A program made the position numbers and the translations under genes. 64,000 nt of DNA from Pseudoalteromonas xiamenensis. GTDB lineage: Bacteria; Pseudomonadota; Gammaproteobacteria; Enterobacterales; Alteromonadaceae. The stretch covers positions 1,240,001 through 1,304,000 of the forward strand of contig NZ_CP099917.1 in the NCBI RefSeq assembly GCF_030994125.1. Direction: 5' to 3'. How positions within the stretch are numbered: position 1 is the first letter of the stretch; every line of letters begins with the position of its first letter. A model generated the notes under the pieces. The model was not told the origin of the DNA, did not search any database, and saw nothing but the letters and a program-made list of their open reading frames with translations. Below are positions 489 through 8,109 of the stretch, piece by piece.

Positions 489-1365
489 TCACCCTCTCGA
501 TTTTATAGTGGCTACGTGTGAATTCATTTTGCACCGTGCAACCGCCCTGCTCACCGTCGAATAATGCACGCCAAATTCCTGCGCGATTTCGCTCATGGAA
601 TATTGCCCGTCTAAATACGCTTTTGCCATACCCTGCTTTGGGTCGTTTTGGTACGTTTGTTTATAGTGGCTAAGTGGCAATGCACTCGCTCGCTTTTGCT
701 TTTTCGGTACTTCGCTGAGTGTTAAATCAGCCTCGGCTTGTGCTGTTTTTAAGTGCAGCTCTACAAACTCGCTACTACCTAAAAACACCTGATTTTCTAA
801 GTTCTGCCAAATATCAACGCCAAGGCCTTGTGCCACAAAGTCGCTGTAGTGCTTGATGGCGGTCTTTCGCGACTTGGCAAATAACAGCAGTAGCGCATCG
901 GTTGCCAACCAATCGGGTGACTTTCGAAGACCGATAGCGTCTTGATAGCTGCTCCACGGCCACTCTACTGGCGAATCAACCATCCCTTTTGCCCGCACTG
1001 GATTAAGCACAATATAGCGGCATAACTCGAGCAAATAGCTGTCTTTATCGACCAAAATGCTTTTATAGCGCCCTTGAAATAGATGACCCACACGCTGGTA
1101 CTTACGATTAAACTGCTGGGTATAGACACCGTTTAGTTGCCGCATCCCTTTGGCCAGATTCGCGTCGGGCGTTTCGACGAATAAATGATAGTGATTGGTC
1201 GTTAAACAATGCGAATAGCTCACCCAGTTAAACCGCTCGCAGACGGATGTGAGCACTGCCTGAAAACGCACAAAATCGTCTTTACTGCGATAAATAGTTT
1301 GGCGTTCATTCCCTCGCGACGTGACACAGTGCCCCCGCTGATTGAAGTCGTAATGGTCGGCCCAT
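489..1365 (-). pseudogene. REP-associated tyrosine transposase (RAYT, Y1/IS200-like), frameshifted
   Basis: A Y1-type HUH transposase of the RAYT class. The long frame (GTG at 1271 to 489) holds the HUH pair in NHYHLFVE, the family block with LCRYIVLNPVRAKG, and a C-terminal helix-turn-helix (near MSEIAQEFGVHYSTVSRA). It lacks the conserved N-terminus. That N-terminus is present in another frame: ATG at 1365 reads MGRPLRLQSAGALCHV and then stops, while the long frame reads back through TSRGNERQTIYR. The two halves meet at about 1315-1325, where CACGTCG appears to have lost roughly five bases. RAYTs are single-copy domesticated transposases that act on REP-like palindromes. This copy is probably inactive. 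Confidence 0.8.
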
Positions 1366-1699: not shown

Positions 1700-2233
1700 T
1701 TATTTACAAGCGCTTGGAACTCGACACGCACAACTTGACGGAGCATGGCAAGCGTGGTCATCGCCACAGCGAGCACCTATTTGATCGTCATAAAGCATCT
1801 CTGTTGGAAACTGACCAAAGTGCTTCTCATAGAGTTTTACTGTTTCGTTAAAAGTCTTCTGCAATTTATGATGGTCATCCTCACCAAAGATCCCAAAATA
1901 GGGGTAATGATGAATATAGAAACCGAAAACAGCTTCACAGTCTTTCATATAACTTTTGGTGTCAAGAATATGTTCATGCCAAAACTTATCAATCAGTTTA
2001 CTAGGCACTAGTGGTTGTTTAGGGTACCACTTTTTCAAAGACAAAAATTTACGATATTCCAGTTCGGCTAAAGAACATTGCTCATCTGACCAAGTGCTTT
2101 CTGAAGACTTAGTTAATTTCCACTTTAACTTTTCAAAGTTTAAATTGGCGACTGCTCTGTCTAACTTCAAGAAAGCCTCCGAGGGGTTTTGCATAATACC
2201 AATACTTGTGTTGCCAATAGTTAAAGCTTCCAT
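1700..2233 (-). CDS. WHxH-motif protein (GRDP-like family) with Cys-rich C-terminal tail
   Basis: 177 residues, no signal peptide. The centre carries LIDKFWHEHILDTKSYMKDC followed by FGFYIHHYPYFG, the signature of the glycine-rich-domain-containing-protein-like family (conserved W-H-x-H, a Tyr/Cys pair, then a His pair), which suggests metal binding. The last 24 residues hold five cysteines and two histidines (CGDDHACHAPSSCACRVPSA), unlike the acidic region before them. The start codon overlaps the stop of the small gene upstream (TAATG), so the two are translationally coupled. The function of bacterial members is unknown. The Cys tail could bind metal or be modified after translation. The family call is moderately sure and the role is not known. 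Confidence 0.7.
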   Translation of the reverse strand: MEALTIGNTSIGIMQNPSEAFLKLDRAVANLNFEKLKWKLTKSSESTWSDEQCSLAELEYRKFLSLKKWYPKQPLVPSKLIDKFWHEHILDTKSYMKDCEAVFGFYIHHYPYFGIFGEDDHHKLQKTFNETVKLYEKHFGQFPTEMLYDDQIGARCGDDHACHAPSSCACRVPSACK

Positions 2234-2376
2234 TACTTACCCCCTTTTTGATTGGGGTTTAACTGCTTACCATGATTCCCTTGATTTTGATCATATTGAC
2301 GATTGGTGCCAGACGTACCTTTATTAGCATTAGATTGGTTTGATTGATTGTCACTTGGTTTAATTTGTTTGCTCAT
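2233..2376 (-). CDS. 47-residue Asn/Gln-rich small protein, coupled to the WHxH gene
   Basis: Below the usual length cutoff but convincing: ATG at 2376 follows a strong AAGGAG site at seven-base spacing, and the stop overlaps the next gene's start as TAATG. The peptide begins MSKQIKPSDNQSNQSNANKG and ends HGKQLNPNQKGGK. It is very rich in Asn, Gln, Lys and Gly, has no Cys and no membrane segment, and should be disordered and soluble. The tight coupling implies a stoichiometric partner, substrate or leader for the downstream protein. No function is recognised. Confidence 0.75.
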   Translation of the reverse strand: MSKQIKPSDNQSNQSNANKGTSGTNRQYDQNQGNHGKQLNPNQKGGK

Positions 2377-2421
2377 TACAAGCTCCTTAATTTCAATTTA
2401 ATATTGTGAAACAAGTACGCT

Positions 2422-2685
2422 TCACCTTCGCTTTAAAAAAGAAGTTAAGTTTTTTCTATGAATGAGCACTAAAGGCAAAAAATGGCCATCGACTAATTCA
2501 AAAATCAGACGGTAACAACCTAGTTTGAACCGCACTAAGTGGGGCGCGAGTACCAACCTTTTGCCTCCAATAGATTGGAAATGAGCAAGCGCTAATAGCT
2601 GGTTTTGGATAAGGCGCGCTTGGGAATAATATCTTTGCGCGACTGCTGGCGGAAATTTGGTAAATAACTTTTTAAGTGCGGTCAT
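2422..2685 (-). CDS. ParE/RelE-like toxin, no antitoxin visible
   Basis: 87 residues. The second half, RFKLGCYRLIFELVDGHFLP followed by LVLIHRKNL, fits the ParE/RelE fold pattern (R-x-G-x-Y-R-L-I-x-E, then a beta strand and I-x-H-R). The N-terminal helices are present. The start ATG at 2685 has an AGGAG site. No ParD/RelB-like antitoxin is encoded on either side: downstream is the 47-residue peptide and upstream is an unrelated operon. A palindrome at 2722-2740 sits directly upstream and could be an operator. This may be an orphan or decayed toxin, or may use an unknown partner. Confidence 0.6.
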   Translation of the reverse strand: MTALKKLFTKFPPAVAQRYYSQARLIQNQLLALAHFQSIGGKRLVLAPHLVRFKLGCYRLIFELVDGHFLPLVLIHRKNLTSFLKRR

Positions 2686-2744: not shown

Positions 2745-3488
2745 CTAAACTAAAATTTTTTTCAGATAGTTTAAAGCTTCTTTATTTTCATTTAATTGAG
2801 ATGTAACTCTATCCTCTAACTGATTAATAAATTTGAGTTTTTTTAACTCCAAACGTTTAATTTCAGACAGTTTTTTCAACGCCAACTCAAACTTTTTTGC
2901 ACTTTCTAACTCTTCTACCTTACTAATAATGTCTATTACTTCACGCCAATCTATAGCAACATCAAATAGAAGCTGTATTGGCTCTAATTCAATATCTTGA
3001 CGGCCTTTTTCAGTAAAAGGAGATGGCAATCTATGTTCAAACAAATCAAATTCAGGCTTTTGGAGTGAATCAATAATTGCAGAAATATTAGCCGGTGTTA
3101 CCCCAAAAAAAGAAGTAGCGGCAAGGTGAATATCATAACTTGAACAGAGATCTGAAGCATTTACAATATAAGTCCTTTTAACCTGGATCTTTTGCTTGTA
3201 GAACTCAGTGAAGATACTTTTGACATTTCTAGTTTCTGAGATGCATAAAAGGCATAACGCGTTATAAATAGCGTTTTCACTTCCTCTGTTAACCTCATAA
3301 AAATTTTTACCTCCACTGTCCGTATTTTTCTCAGTGAAGACTTTCTTAGCATAGGGTATTTTGCCTTTGATAAATATGTTGTTCAAAGCGTCATGCAGCT
3401 TCTTAGGTAAATCACACTGAGGATTGATAAGCCCTGTTGCTATCCTTCTAATTGACCTATTGCTATTGGCCTTATTTGTCGCTACCAA
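2745..3488 (-). CDS. Unknown cytoplasmic protein with C-terminal coiled coil (operon gene 3)
   Basis: 247 residues, no signal peptide or membrane segment. The last 60 residues are Lys/Glu/Leu-rich and predict a coiled coil. The start is a TTG at 3488 inside the end of the upstream gene (seven-base overlap), with AAGGA nine bases before it, so translation is probably coupled. I recognise no family. Low GC and many Asn/Lys/Ile codons mark it as different from the core genes to the right. Confidence 0.6.
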   Translation of the reverse strand: MVATNKANSNRSIRRIATGLINPQCDLPKKLHDALNNIFIKGKIPYAKKVFTEKNTDSGGKNFYEVNRGSENAIYNALCLLCISETRNVKSIFTEFYKQKIQVKRTYIVNASDLCSSYDIHLAATSFFGVTPANISAIIDSLQKPEFDLFEHRLPSPFTEKGRQDIELEPIQLLFDVAIDWREVIDIISKVEELESAKKFELALKKLSEIKRLELKKLKFINQLEDRVTSQLNENKEALNYLKKILV

Positions 3489-3961
3489 ATTAGGACTTCC
3501 TTACAAAGTAATTCGCGAACATCTTCCCTGTTCATATCAACCTTGGATGAACTAAGCATGATATCTATCGCTTGCTTACCTCGAATACACTGATATTTAC
3601 GATCTCTACTGCTGTAACTAAGCACTCTTTCGTTATCGTATCGAGTAAAAACCGCATTTATGACACCTACACACATACCAATTTGAAGTGCTTCCTTTTT
3701 TGATAAGCTAAACACACCCAAAATACTACTTTCATCTTCTTTAATCTCAGAGCATGCTTCAGGGATCCAATTAACCCTTTTAGTTTTAATTTGTGCTGCC
3801 CCAATACACTCGCCAAGTTCTATAAACTCTTTTTTGTTCAATAAAATAAGTGAATTTTCTGTCACTTCAGTTAAATCTTGGCAAGTATCAGGCAATAAAA
3901 CCTTAGCGTCTAAAGAGAATGAATAACAAAATAAAAGAAAAGTTATGACTAATAGTTTCAT
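3482..3961 (-). CDS. Secreted Cys-containing protein, unknown (operon gene 2)
   Basis: 159 residues from ATG at 3961, which overlaps the upstream stop as ATGA. An upstream TTG at 3982 would add seven residues before the signal peptide. The N-terminus MKLLVITFLLFCYSFSLDAK is a clear Sec signal. The mature protein has two similar Cys-containing helical segments (LGECIGAAQ and IGMCVGVINAVF) and a late pair of cysteines. The G-x-C-x-G-x-x-x-A pattern faintly recalls Rap1a/Tai-type periplasmic immunity proteins, but this is not secure. It lies between a membrane protein and a cytoplasmic protein in one operon. Confidence 0.65.
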   Translation of the reverse strand: MKLLVITFLLFCYSFSLDAKVLLPDTCQDLTEVTENSLILLNKKEFIELGECIGAAQIKTKRVNWIPEACSEIKEDESSILGVFSLSKKEALQIGMCVGVINAVFTRYDNERVLSYSSRDRKYQCIRGKQAIDIMLSSSKVDMNREDVRELLCKEVLIW

Positions 3962-4620
3962 TCTTCGTAGCTCTTTGAACAAAACCTAAGTGAATAGCCA
4001 TAAACTAGCAATTCGACAATATTGAATAATGCCAAAATTTCATCCGAATTAGATCCATCTAAAACTTGGAAAAAAACATCGTCAAATGACTTTTCGAACA
4101 AGAGAGACCCCAGCAAAATACACGCTAATATAAATAACGAGAGCTTTATCATGTTAATTAAAGTCAAAACGAATGAATTAGCTAACATAGCCAAACCATA
4201 TCGCATTACATCATACTTTTTCACTTCCGATAAAAGCGGCTTTATTTTGTAAAATAGCAAACCAGCAAGAGCAAAAAGATACAAATGATAAAATGGCGTT
4301 GTTGTTGAAACTTCGCCAACTCCCTCTACAAGCTCAGTGTCAAAAGCTATTTCTAAGTAAAGCAGCGTAGCCACACTGCAAATAAGAATACAGAAGTAGA
4401 TGAAGGTGCTTAAGACACTTATGGGGGTATGTCGAAATATATATAACTGCTTTGGGTTGGCAATAAAAAAGCGTTTACGTGATTTTTGAATAAGATCAAG
4501 CTCAGTATCTGAGAGATAAGCTGGCTGAACAGGTGTTTTCGAGTTGAGAGCTTTATTGACATCTAGACCTACAGCGAAATCTGTAACTGAAGATTGCTCT
4601 AGAGAATATTTATACTGCAT
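3958..4620 (-). CDS. Unknown inner-membrane protein (operon gene 1)
   Basis: 220 residues. The first 65 are polar. Hydrophobic segments then lie at about 68-90, 110-128, 145-170 and possibly 195-212, giving three to four membrane helices. The start ATG at 4620 has AAGGAG six bases upstream. A probable promoter lies further up: TTGACA at 4695-4700 (minus) and TTTTAA at 4672-4677 with 17-base spacing. The stop overlaps the start of the secreted-protein gene. No family is recognised. Confidence 0.6.
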   Translation of the reverse strand: MQYKYSLEQSSVTDFAVGLDVNKALNSKTPVQPAYLSDTELDLIQKSRKRFFIANPKQLYIFRHTPISVLSTFIYFCILICSVATLLYLEIAFDTELVEGVGEVSTTTPFYHLYLFALAGLLFYKIKPLLSEVKKYDVMRYGLAMLANSFVLTLINMIKLSLFILACILLGSLLFEKSFDDVFFQVLDGSNSDEILALFNIVELLVYGYSLRFCSKSYEE

Positions 4621-5217: not shown

Positions 5218-8109
5218 TTACTCTGCATACGTATCCGTTGAAGGACATGAACACACTAGGTTACGGTCGCCGTATACGTCATCGATACGCGTTACCGTTG
5301 GCCAGAATTTGTCTTTCATGACTGACGCAACTGGGAATGCTGCGTAGAAACGGTCGTAGGCACGGTCCCACTCGTTGCCTAGCACATCGCCTTGCGTGTG
5401 CGGAGCAAACACTAATGGGTTGTTTTCTACTGACCATTCGCCCGATTCTACTTTCGCGATTTCGCTACGGATAGACACCATCGCTTCGATAAAGCGGTCG
5501 ATTTCTACTTTCGACTCCGATTCCGTTGGCTCGATCATCAGCGTGCCCGCTACTGGGAACGACATAGTCGGAGCGTGGAAACCGTAGTCCATTAAGCGTT
5601 TTGCTACGTCCATTTCTGTGATGCCAGACGCTTCTTTAAGCGGACGAAGGTCAACAATACATTCGTGCGCTACGCGGTCGTTACGGCCACGGTAAAGAAT
5701 TGGGAAGTGCTCGCTTAACTTTTGCGTTAAGTAGTTCGCGTTTAAAATCGCGATTTCAGTCGCTTGCTTCAAGCCTTCTGAGCCCATCATCGCGATGTAT
5801 GCCCAAGAAATTGGCAGGATAGCCGCTGAACCGAATGGCGCTGCAGATACTGCACCATTCGTTTCTGTTGTGCCCTTTACTGTGATTAGGCTGTGCGCTG
5901 GCATAAATGGCGCAAGGTGTGCTTTAACACCGATTGGGCCAACACCTGGGCCGCCGCCACCGTGTGGGATACAGAATGTTTTGTGTAGGTTAAGGTGCGA
6001 TACGTCCGAGCCGATAAAGCCTGGGCTAGTTACACCGACTTGCGCGTTCATGTTCGCGCCGTCCATGTATACTTGGCCGCCGTGTGAGTGGATGATGTCA
6101 CACACTTCACGGATTGACTCTTCGTATACACCGTGCGTTGACGGGTAAGTTACCATGATACACGCTAGGTTTTCAGACACTTCTTCAGCCTTCGTGCGAA
6201 GGTCGTTCATGTCGATGTTACCTTCTTTGTCACACGCCACCACCACGACTTTCATGCTTGCCATTTGCGCTGTTGCCGGGTTTGTACCGTGCGCAGAGCT
6301 TGGGATCAAACAGATGTTACGGTGCGCATCGCCACGTGACTCGTGGTATTTACGAATTGCGATTAGACCGGCGTACTCACCTTGTGCACCTGAGTTAGGT
6401 TGTAGTGATACGGCGTCGTAACCTGTGATGTTAACCAGCCAGTCGTGTAGCTCGCCCATCATGATTTGATAGCCTTCAGCCTGCTCTAATGGGCAGAATG
6501 GGTGAAGGTTGGCAAACTCTGGCCACGTGACTGGGATCATTTCCGCCGTCGCGTTTAGCTTCATGGTACATGAACCCAATGAAATCATTGAGTGGTTAAG
6601 CGCTAAGTCTTTGTTCTCTAAACGCTTAACATAACGAAGCATTTCTGTTTCGCTGTGGTAGCTGTTGAAGTTTTCATGCGTGAGTACTTTGTCGTCACGA
6701 ACTAGGCTTGCAGGAATACCGGTGATGCCGTTTGCTGCTACGTCTGCGTCTAGTGCAGCTACGTCAAGACCGTGGCCTTCGCCTACGATAATGTCGAATA
6801 GCTCTGCGATGTCAGCGCGTGTTGTGGTTTCGTTTACTGCGATGCTGAACTCGCCTTCACGGTTCACTGCAAAGTTAACGCCTTTAGCTTGTGAGCGTGC
6901 AACGATCTCAGCTTTGTTTGCCGCAACAACCGTGATGGTGTCAAACCATGTGTCGTGCTTAAGCGCGATGCCTTTTGCTTTTAAGCCAGTCGCAAGGATG
7001 CTTGCAAAGCGGTTGATGCGCTCAGCAATGATTTTAAGACCTTGTGGACCGTGGTATACCGCGTAGAACGCAGCCATGTTGGCAAGTAGTACTTGCGCTG
7101 TACAGATGTTTGAGTTCGCTTTTTCACGACGGATGTGCTGCTCGCGCGTTTGCATTGCCATACGTAGTGCGTCGTTGCCTAAACGGTCTTTAGAAATACC
7201 GATAATACGACCTGGTAGTGAACGCTTGTACTCGTCGCGTGTTGCGAAGAATGCTGCGTGTGGACCACCGTAGCCCATAGGCACACCAAAACGTTGTGCA
7301 GAACCGAGTACTACGTCTGCACCTAGTTTTCCTGGTGCTTTAAGTAGCAATAAGCTCATGATGTCTGCGGCCACACAGGCAATCGCTTTTTTGTCTTGAA
7401 CTTGTGCAATGAGGCTTGTTACGTCTACAACTTCACCCGTTGTCGATGGGTATTGGAATAGCGCACCGAAAATCTCGTGGTTTGCTGCATCGCTTGCTGG
7501 ACCTACGATGATGTCGAAACCAAATTGCTCAGCACGTGTTTTTACTACGTCGGCTGTTTGTACGTGTACGTCGTCTGCAATGAAGAAAGCGTTTGCTTTT
7601 TTCGCTTTAGAAACACGTTTTGCCAATGCCATCGCTTCTGCGGCTGCCGTTGCTTCGTCAAGCAATGACGCAGACGCAAGGTCTAGACCAGTTAAATCTA
7701 ATGTCAACGTTTGGAAGTTTAGTAGTGATTCTAAACGACCTTGTGCAATCTCTGGCTGGTATGGTGTATACGCTGTGTACCAACCTGGGTTCTCAAGTAC
7801 GTTACGTAGGATAACGTTAGGAACGTGCGTTGGGTGGTAACCTTGGCCGATGTATGACTTGAATACTTTGTTTTTGCCTGCAACTGATTTTAAGTAAGAA
7901 AGTACTTCTACTTCAGTGCGTGCTTCACCGATTTCAAGTGGCTTTGGTAAACGGATCCCAGCAGGTACCGTTTGCTCGATAAGCTCTTCAACACTCGATA
8001 CTCCAAGAGCAGATAGCATTTCACCGATTTGTGCCGGCGTTGGCCCGATGTGGCGGCGAATAAAATCCTGCTTTTGCTCTAGTTGTGCAAGAGATTTAGC
8101 GTTTGACAT
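5218..8109 (-). CDS. gcvP: Glycine dehydrogenase (decarboxylating), P protein
   Basis: 963 residues, the usual length for the single-chain P protein. It decarboxylates glycine with pyridoxal phosphate and passes the aminomethyl group to the lipoyl arm of GcvH. Two homologous halves are visible: the N-terminal half starts near [13 protein letters not shown], and the C-terminal half carries the cofactor Lys in [16 protein letters not shown]. The ATG at 8109 has AGGAA upstream. It is the last gene of gcvT-gcvH-gcvP, but a strong terminator and about 200 bases separate it from gcvH, so it may have its own promoter or be expressed by partial read-through. Confidence 0.97.

Follow-up and report, generated by a model that had tools for sequence, protein, structure and literature searches.

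A Cys-tailed WHxH protein occupies the viperin slot of a conserved, probably anti-phage operon

Introduction

Viperin is an antiviral enzyme that makes chain-terminating nucleotides. A reference for the operons of its prokaryotic form, pVip, is Bernheim (Nature, 2021). A later article (mBio 2024, PMC10865869) describes pVip operons with RelE/HicA genes; its section 10 states that RelE-type genes accompany pVip genes and poses their role as an open question. The locus described here resembles pVip operons in placing a small RelE/ParE-type gene beside an effector gene, and several viperin loci in our data carry secreted and SPF genes upstream, with zinc-ribbon, NYN or kinase-like genes near by. 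It differs from them in that WHxH-Cys, a protein with no radical SAM match, replaces viperin, and in that a small Asn/Gln-rich peptide is added. The available part of PMC10865869 contains no mention of WHxH, SPF or the peptide, and the literature searched yielded no account of the shared upstream module, of a ParE–viperin fusion or of WHxH-Cys.

Two other described systems come close. GRDP-like/DUF1399 proteins (PF07173; PF27765.1) share the WHxH helical domain, with a structural match to a Harvfovirus protein; plant GRDPs are described as glycine-rich in the abstract of PMC4299439, whereas WHxH-Cys has a five-Cys tail and no glycine-rich part. Type II toxin–antitoxin systems of the RelE/ParE superfamily (PMC11980606) resemble the locus through its small, putatively ParE_like protein and its defence-type setting, but here Pfam recognised no antitoxin beside the ParE-like gene of the window, and the partner is a multigene operon or, by fusion, viperin. 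By architecture, the locus would be a variant of viperin-type defence operons, its function predicted rather than proven.

Results

The peptide and WHxH-Cys genes close a six-gene operon

Six genes follow one another on the minus strand of the window, the whole 64,000-nucleotide stretch of Pseudoalteromonas xiamenensis DNA that was analysed, in the order membrane protein, secreted Cys protein, SPF, ParE-like, peptide and WHxH-Cys. The presumed first gene (3958..4620) encodes a 220-residue membrane protein with two hydrophobic segments. The small secreted Cys protein (3482..3961) has a signal-peptide-like N terminus by eye and a probable ATG at 3961 that overlaps the stop of the upstream gene; its two forms (families A5 and A7) are homologous by hhalign (E 1.2e-9), and searches returned neither a confident Pfam match nor a PDB match. 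SPF (2745..3488; about 247 residues), named after its LPSPF motif, belongs to no known family. Its two subfamilies are homologous by hhalign (E 8.6e-12); its AlphaFold2 model has a mean pLDDT of 84, and searches gave no convincing PDB match. The ParE-like protein (2422..2685) has 87 residues. Of the 24 members of its family, all but one match PF24732 (ParE_like) at E<=0.1, the best with 2.2e-14, and the window copy alone reaches 16.2 bits, below the cut-off of 24.4. The core gene gcvP (5218..8109, minus strand, recognised from its translation) bounds the island.

The last two genes overlap. The peptide gene (2233..2376) encodes 47 residues, 17 of them Asn or Gln by hand count; its stop overlaps the WHxH-Cys start as TAATG, and a Shine-Dalgarno sequence, AAGGAG, precedes its ATG at 2383..2388. 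WHxH-Cys (1700..2233; 177 residues) has a Shine-Dalgarno-like AGGGGG at 2240..2245, within the end of the peptide gene (AAAAAGGGGG upstream of the ATG), and its last 24 residues hold five Cys and two His. An earlier note on this DNA had picked out the same overlapping reading frames, the peptide's ribosome site and the composition of the tail, all of which are as it described them.

Codon comparisons indicate purifying selection on both. The reference was the nearest relative, Pseudoalteromonas phenolica S3663 (L021). The peptide is identical at 38 of 47 positions (dN 0.096, dS 1.02), and because its dN/dS is about 0.094 the 47-codon frame is very probably a real gene. WHxH-Cys is identical at 144 of 177 positions (dN 0.103, dS 0.928, dN/dS 0.11), and dN also lies well under dS for the remaining four operon genes. 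By these measures the peptide and WHxH-Cys frames both look translated and selected. The earlier note had singled out the two as a pair. Read from gene order, the pair is the 3' end of a six-gene operon, and the peptide is also found in other defence-type loci.

By eye, a stretch of about 14 kb flanking the operon on one side holds several near copies of an IS200-like (Y1) transposase gene (window 489-1271, and L165).

WHxH-Cys joins a helical GRDP-like domain to an invariant Cys/His tail

The tail recurs throughout the listed homologues of WHxH-Cys. A homologue search found 209 proteins, and in all of the best 120, which were listed, the motif RC-x(1-3)-H-x-CH-x4-C-x-CR-x4-C lies at most 12 residues from the C terminus. 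The earlier note had proposed looking for a conserved Cys tail in relatives, and these 120 homologues bear it out. In the window protein the tail comprises residues 154-177 (1703..1774, minus strand). Its Cys and His residues are invariant in a 43-sequence alignment, as are W85, H86, H88, D91, C99 and H109 of the domain, and the tail is more conserved than the domain. The WHxH motif itself occupies residues 85-88 (WHEH, in FWHEHILDT; 1970..1981, minus strand).

The AlphaFold2 model (mean pLDDT 80.6) is all-helical and ordered over about residues 21-149, while the tail has low pLDDT and no confident structure. Foldseek matched the model to a GRDP-like protein of Harvfovirus, a giant virus (E 3.7e-5, TM 0.73 by target length). 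PF27765.1 is precomputed on all of the best 120 of 209 homologues and PF07173 on some of them, but the window protein scores 18.7 bits with PF07173 against a cut-off of 22.7, and PF27765.1 was not reported in its Pfam scan. The GRDP-like label given by the earlier note therefore stands for the fold and the WHxH motif but falls short at the family threshold. On the strength of the model, WHxH-Cys is a protein of predicted GRDP-like helical fold with a WHxH motif, though below the PF07173 cut-off.

Family and structure searches matched WHxH-Cys to no enzyme family and no PDB fold. We also considered whether the protein is itself a viperin and rejected this, as the scan gave no match to Radical_SAM or to the viperin model NF038283.

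The gene order of the operon is conserved across genera

We compared tail-bearing loci with relatives that carry other tails. Relatives were fetched from one genome per species (133), and the best 80 loci were kept. Group A comprises 47 tail-bearing loci (L004, L021-L064, L067, L072); because it was selected by the tail, the presence of the tail in 47 of 47 is circular and is not evidence. Two loci, L002 and L003, were excluded because they come from the same genomes as L021 and L023. Group B consists of 39 relatives whose tails differ; L005 and the four viral contigs L101-L104 are among them. Neighbouring open reading frames were clustered and then labelled by HMM.

The upstream genes travel with the tail. 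Group A loci carry SPF (36 of 47), the secreted Cys protein (35), the membrane protein (32) and the ParE-like gene (28) upstream, and each of these four is found at 0 of the 39 group B loci. Runs of four to six genes keep their order and strand in Pseudoalteromonas, Colwellia, Marinobacter, Marinobacterium, Pseudomonas and others. Eleven tail-bearing loci have no SPF: two of these (L051, L067) have almost no upstream sequence, and three are from Acinetobacter, where WHxH-Cys occurs without the other operon genes. One explanation for the cluster is hitchhiking, in which unrelated small genes with no joint function have gathered in genomic islands. Such islands do collect genes, and the peptide occurs in many contexts, but the constancy of order and strand across several genera and the empty control loci make this very unlikely.

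A survey of a single order, covering 394 genomes with our own included, gave a similar picture, although the two samples are not independent since some genomes are in both (for example G363 and L034). SPF occurs in 7 of the 394, all 7 with membrane and secreted genes upstream. Tail-bearing WHxH proteins also occur in 7, with SPF upstream in 6 and absent in G358; we counted G358 as lacking SPF because its WHxH tail is identical to the one in L027, a locus with 6 kb of upstream sequence and no SPF.

WHxH-Cys and viperin exchange in one operon frame

What follows SPF is either WHxH-Cys or viperin. Of the seven SPF-bearing genomes in the order, five have WHxH-Cys after SPF (our own, G301, G317, G323, G363) and two have viperin (G036, G337). 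In the latter two, viperin carries a C-terminal ParE-like domain (about 1e-15 with our own HMM for both; PF24732 4.5e-6 for G337), so that two genomes encode natural viperin–ParE-like fusions (L149:5777-6946 and L150:5716-6873). The order there is membrane protein, secreted protein, SPF, fusion and peptide, with three further genes 3' of the peptide: a B12-binding radical SAM protein, a thymidylate-kinase-like protein and an NYN/OST-HTH protein.

Several viperin loci of the order show parts of the same frame. Viperin exceeded the NCBIfam cut-off in 23 of the 394 genomes searched; 22 of the 23 loci were inspected, G328 being left out, and the 16 with E <1e-88 were taken as high-scoring. A viperin at L234, just outside the seed cut-off, was included in a later check. 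In six of the 16, viperin is preceded by SPF and the secreted gene (G585, G466, G383, G298, G337, G036), the SPF matches beside the first four being weak (E 1e-5 to 4e-7). One (L226, in G293) reads ParE-like, viperin, zinc-ribbon-like protein, and three have only a zinc-ribbon gene after viperin, two of them with NYN (G376, G357, G485). The order at L221, L223 and L224 is viperin, zinc-ribbon-like, with NYN in two. No cassette label was found at 6 of the 16 high-scoring loci, nor at any of the six weaker ones inspected.

The same neighbours surround WHxH-Cys, in the order ParE-like, (peptide), WHxH-Cys, or WHxH-Cys, zinc-ribbon-like, NYN (L034); L058 has another NYN-like gene. At two loci (L046, L050) the B12 radical SAM and kinase genes come first, followed by ParE-like and WHxH-Cys, and one (L024) encodes WHxH-Cys and then viperin (NF038283 E 1.4e-98), so that both stand in one locus. 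WHxH-Cys and viperin exchange in one operon frame, because both occupy the same slot by the orders of SPF, ParE-like, zinc-ribbon and NYN genes.

The radical SAM genes also bear on whether WHxH-Cys is RiPP-like, with the WHxH domain as a folded leader and the Cys tail as a core peptide subject to modification and perhaps release. A C-terminal tail that has no confident structure and is more conserved than the domain would suit such a precursor, as would the repeats, such as AYCAV or AYCAITPG, borne by relatives, many of them Burkholderiales. Nearby maturation enzymes are nonetheless scarce: the B12 radical SAM gene occurs at only two of the 47 loci (L046, L050), viperin at one (L024), and we recognised no recurrent maturase by eye among the neighbour clusters. 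RiPP core peptides usually vary, and this tail hardly does. We regard a RiPP-like role as improbable.

A protein of about 900 residues starting FPTFESVL was also observed beside viperin, on the other strand, at five loci (L221, L223, L224, L225, L293), and beside tandem peptide genes in L163.

The Asn/Gln-rich peptide is shared among many defence-type loci

The peptide has a reach far beyond WHxH-Cys. Its family numbers 228 proteins at E<=1, of which the best 120 were listed, and among the matches listed are homologues in Vibrio, Pseudomonas, Treponema, Porphyromonas, Pseudodesulfovibrio and others. They share a common core, NANKGTSGTNRQYDQ-QGNRGKQLNPNQ, and even in other phyla the peptide is about 65-83% identical to the window copy despite its low-complexity sequence. 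Some databases give homologues names such as 'alpha-amylase'. The peptide sequence also occurs within longer open reading frames (L111, L159).

Its neighbours in the order are varied. We inspected all 23 places, in 22 of the 394 genomes, where the peptide occurs. Eight adjoin operon genes (our own, L145, L146, L147, L149, L150, L151, L153), four lie no more than about 4 kb from HsdM/HsdS-like genes (L156, L157, L172, L173), three adjoin a ThsB-type TIR protein (L148, L152, L154; PF08937 E 5e-16 to 2e-22) and one a WYL-like regulator (L171); the remaining seven carry no assignment. On a Treponema plasmid (L110) the peptide lies beside a zinc-ribbon gene, with viperin 4.5 kb off.

Seen from WHxH-Cys, the association is partial. 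The peptide directly precedes WHxH-Cys at 8 of the 47 tail-bearing loci (L004, L021-L023, L025, L026, L029, L030), all from marine Alteromonadales, and directly follows it at three (L049, L055, L057); at the other 36 no peptide adjoins it, although L062 has one on the opposite strand, about 0.8 kb away. Of the two outcomes that the earlier note would have taken as a refutation, neither occurred: the genes keep together in marine Alteromonadales, and every close homologue listed has the tail. Yet the pair is not the unit. Since the peptide also keeps company with viperin, ThsB-type TIR and restriction genes, its neighbourhoods mark it as an accessory found at many defence-type loci in different phyla and not as a partner dedicated to WHxH-Cys. 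The same two facts, its other contexts and its absence from 36 loci, make it unlikely that the pair is a chaperone and its substrate or that WHxH-Cys modifies the peptide, both of which the earlier note had entertained.

These distributions also speak to a toxin–antitoxin module, with the ParE-like protein as toxin and the peptide or WHxH-Cys as antitoxin. The PF24732 matches across the ParE-like family are what one would expect of such a module, and the peptide directly follows the ParE-like gene at eight loci. Yet 17 of the 28 loci with ParE-like have no peptide, the window ParE-like protein stays below the Pfam cut-off, and a Pfam scan of the window's genes found no antitoxin family match among the neighbours. 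The fusion of ParE-like to viperin in two genomes further argues against an antitoxin pair, and we consider this module quite improbable.

A peptide copy is also present in an integron cassette array on a Klebsiella plasmid (L109:5836-6222).

Tail-bearing loci recur among defence genes

Restriction-modification genes recur beside the operon. HsdM- or HsdS-like genes are present at 10 of 47 group A loci (HsdM-like at 9) versus 2 of 39 in group B; the HsdM-like protein of L063 is a 1038-residue N6 methylase. As a guide only, since the baseline was drawn from different genomes by a different kind of search, about 51 strong N6_Mtase matches (>97 bits, hand count) in 41 relatives (about 177 Mb) would predict by hand about 0.16 in the 0.54 Mb of group A. 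Other group A neighbours include, by eye, DUF3800-like genes and GHKL-type and OLD-like ATPases, and L072 has a helicase with a PLD domain in the family scan.

The insertion site varies in a similar way. The window operon lies directly after gcvP, which is present in 30 of 30 genomes of the genus. We took the downstream flank from 28 other genus genomes, two of the flanks being under 3 kb (L289, L294) and G014, with 201 bases on that side, being excluded. These flanks differ: two hold HsdM and HsdS (L290, L300), one holds viperin and a zinc-ribbon gene (L293), and no further label of the set used was found in the 28. In G040, from another family, a related operon with the peptide sits at the same place after gcvP (L151). 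The gcvP 3' flank thus varies in content and in some strains has acquired defence genes, and by this flank and the Hsd counts the tail-bearing loci are recurrently located among defence genes.

Known defence models capture little of the cassette. PADLOC 2.0.0, run on five cassette proteins (all but the peptide), gave a single weak match, Specificity_I on SPF (E 0.016), so that none of the five convincingly matches a known defence model. Its tallies for neighbours, 144 of 346 proteins in group A against 128 of 294 in group B, do not cleanly separate the groups.

The neighbourhood can be set against a metal-handling unit, in which the tail would scavenge metal as a metallothionein does, or carry it, with the operon serving metal stress. 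The invariance of the five Cys and two His is in keeping with this, and 38 of 39 divergent WHxH relatives have at least two Cys after the domain. Against it, a single conserved tail is little for a scavenger, no metal transporter or regulator was recognised by eye among the recurrent neighbour clusters, and the neighbours with an assigned family are restriction, viperin, TIR and NYN genes. A metal-handling unit is, on balance, unlikely.

Discussion

The six-gene operon is probably anti-phage, with WHxH-Cys in the viperin slot; we favour this reading on the evidence of gene order and neighbourhood. Speaking against it are the WHxH-Cys copies that stand alone, the viperin loci that have none of these genes, and the PADLOC results for both the cassette proteins and their neighbours. 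Two proteins, the membrane protein and the secreted Cys protein, may watch the cell envelope, and SPF, in the cytosol, could pass on their signal. ParE-like would act with, or dock, the effector in the last slot, which is viperin in some operons and would be WHxH-Cys here. For WHxH-Cys, for which the searches returned neither an enzyme family nor a PDB fold, it is gene position that suggests an effector role. Metal (Zn or Fe-S) is most likely bound by its helical domain, with the invariant WHxH, D91 and H109, and by its Cys/His tail. A metal-binding effector is our best guess for the protein, and its target would most likely be a nucleotide or nucleic acid. The Asn/Gln-rich peptide would be a translationally coupled accessory common to many defence-type loci.

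A broader proposal is more tentative, and we hold it as a possibility on the doubtful side of even: WHxH-Cys may be a new class of antiviral effector that replaces viperin behind a shared envelope-sensing module, with the peptide a general small defence cofactor and the other-tailed WHxH proteins of viral contigs and giant viruses its relatives.

If the operon is antiviral, viperin would have at least one counterpart with which it exchanges behind a common upstream module that is so far undescribed. The natural fusion and the viperin-free form would then allow a direct test of what RelE-type genes do beside viperins. A first function would also follow for bacterial Cys-tailed WHxH/GRDP-like proteins and for a tiny peptide conserved across phyla.

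WHxH relatives with other tails form conserved sets of their own. One set, mostly from Burkholderiales (L066, L068, L075, L077, L079, L083, L086, L089, L091, L093-L095, L100), ends in many Cys repeats such as AYCAV, AYCAITPG or AYCARMAK, and eight of its members have a gene of about 1138 residues, sensor-like by eye, directly upstream. In a second (L076, L078, L081, L082, L084, L085, L092, L096, L098, L099), the WHxH protein ends RSCxPQRCP-like (or SCGCRSGNGSSCR) and its neighbours are a methyltransferase (at 10 loci), a dioxygenase-like gene (at 8; Pfam identifies one member as TauD) and a UvrA-like ATPase about 1400 residues long (at 9; identified by Pfam in one member). The GRDP-like proteins of giant viruses have the same fold as the WHxH proteins, and the viral contigs L101-L104 encode WHxH proteins with CGGGG-type tails.
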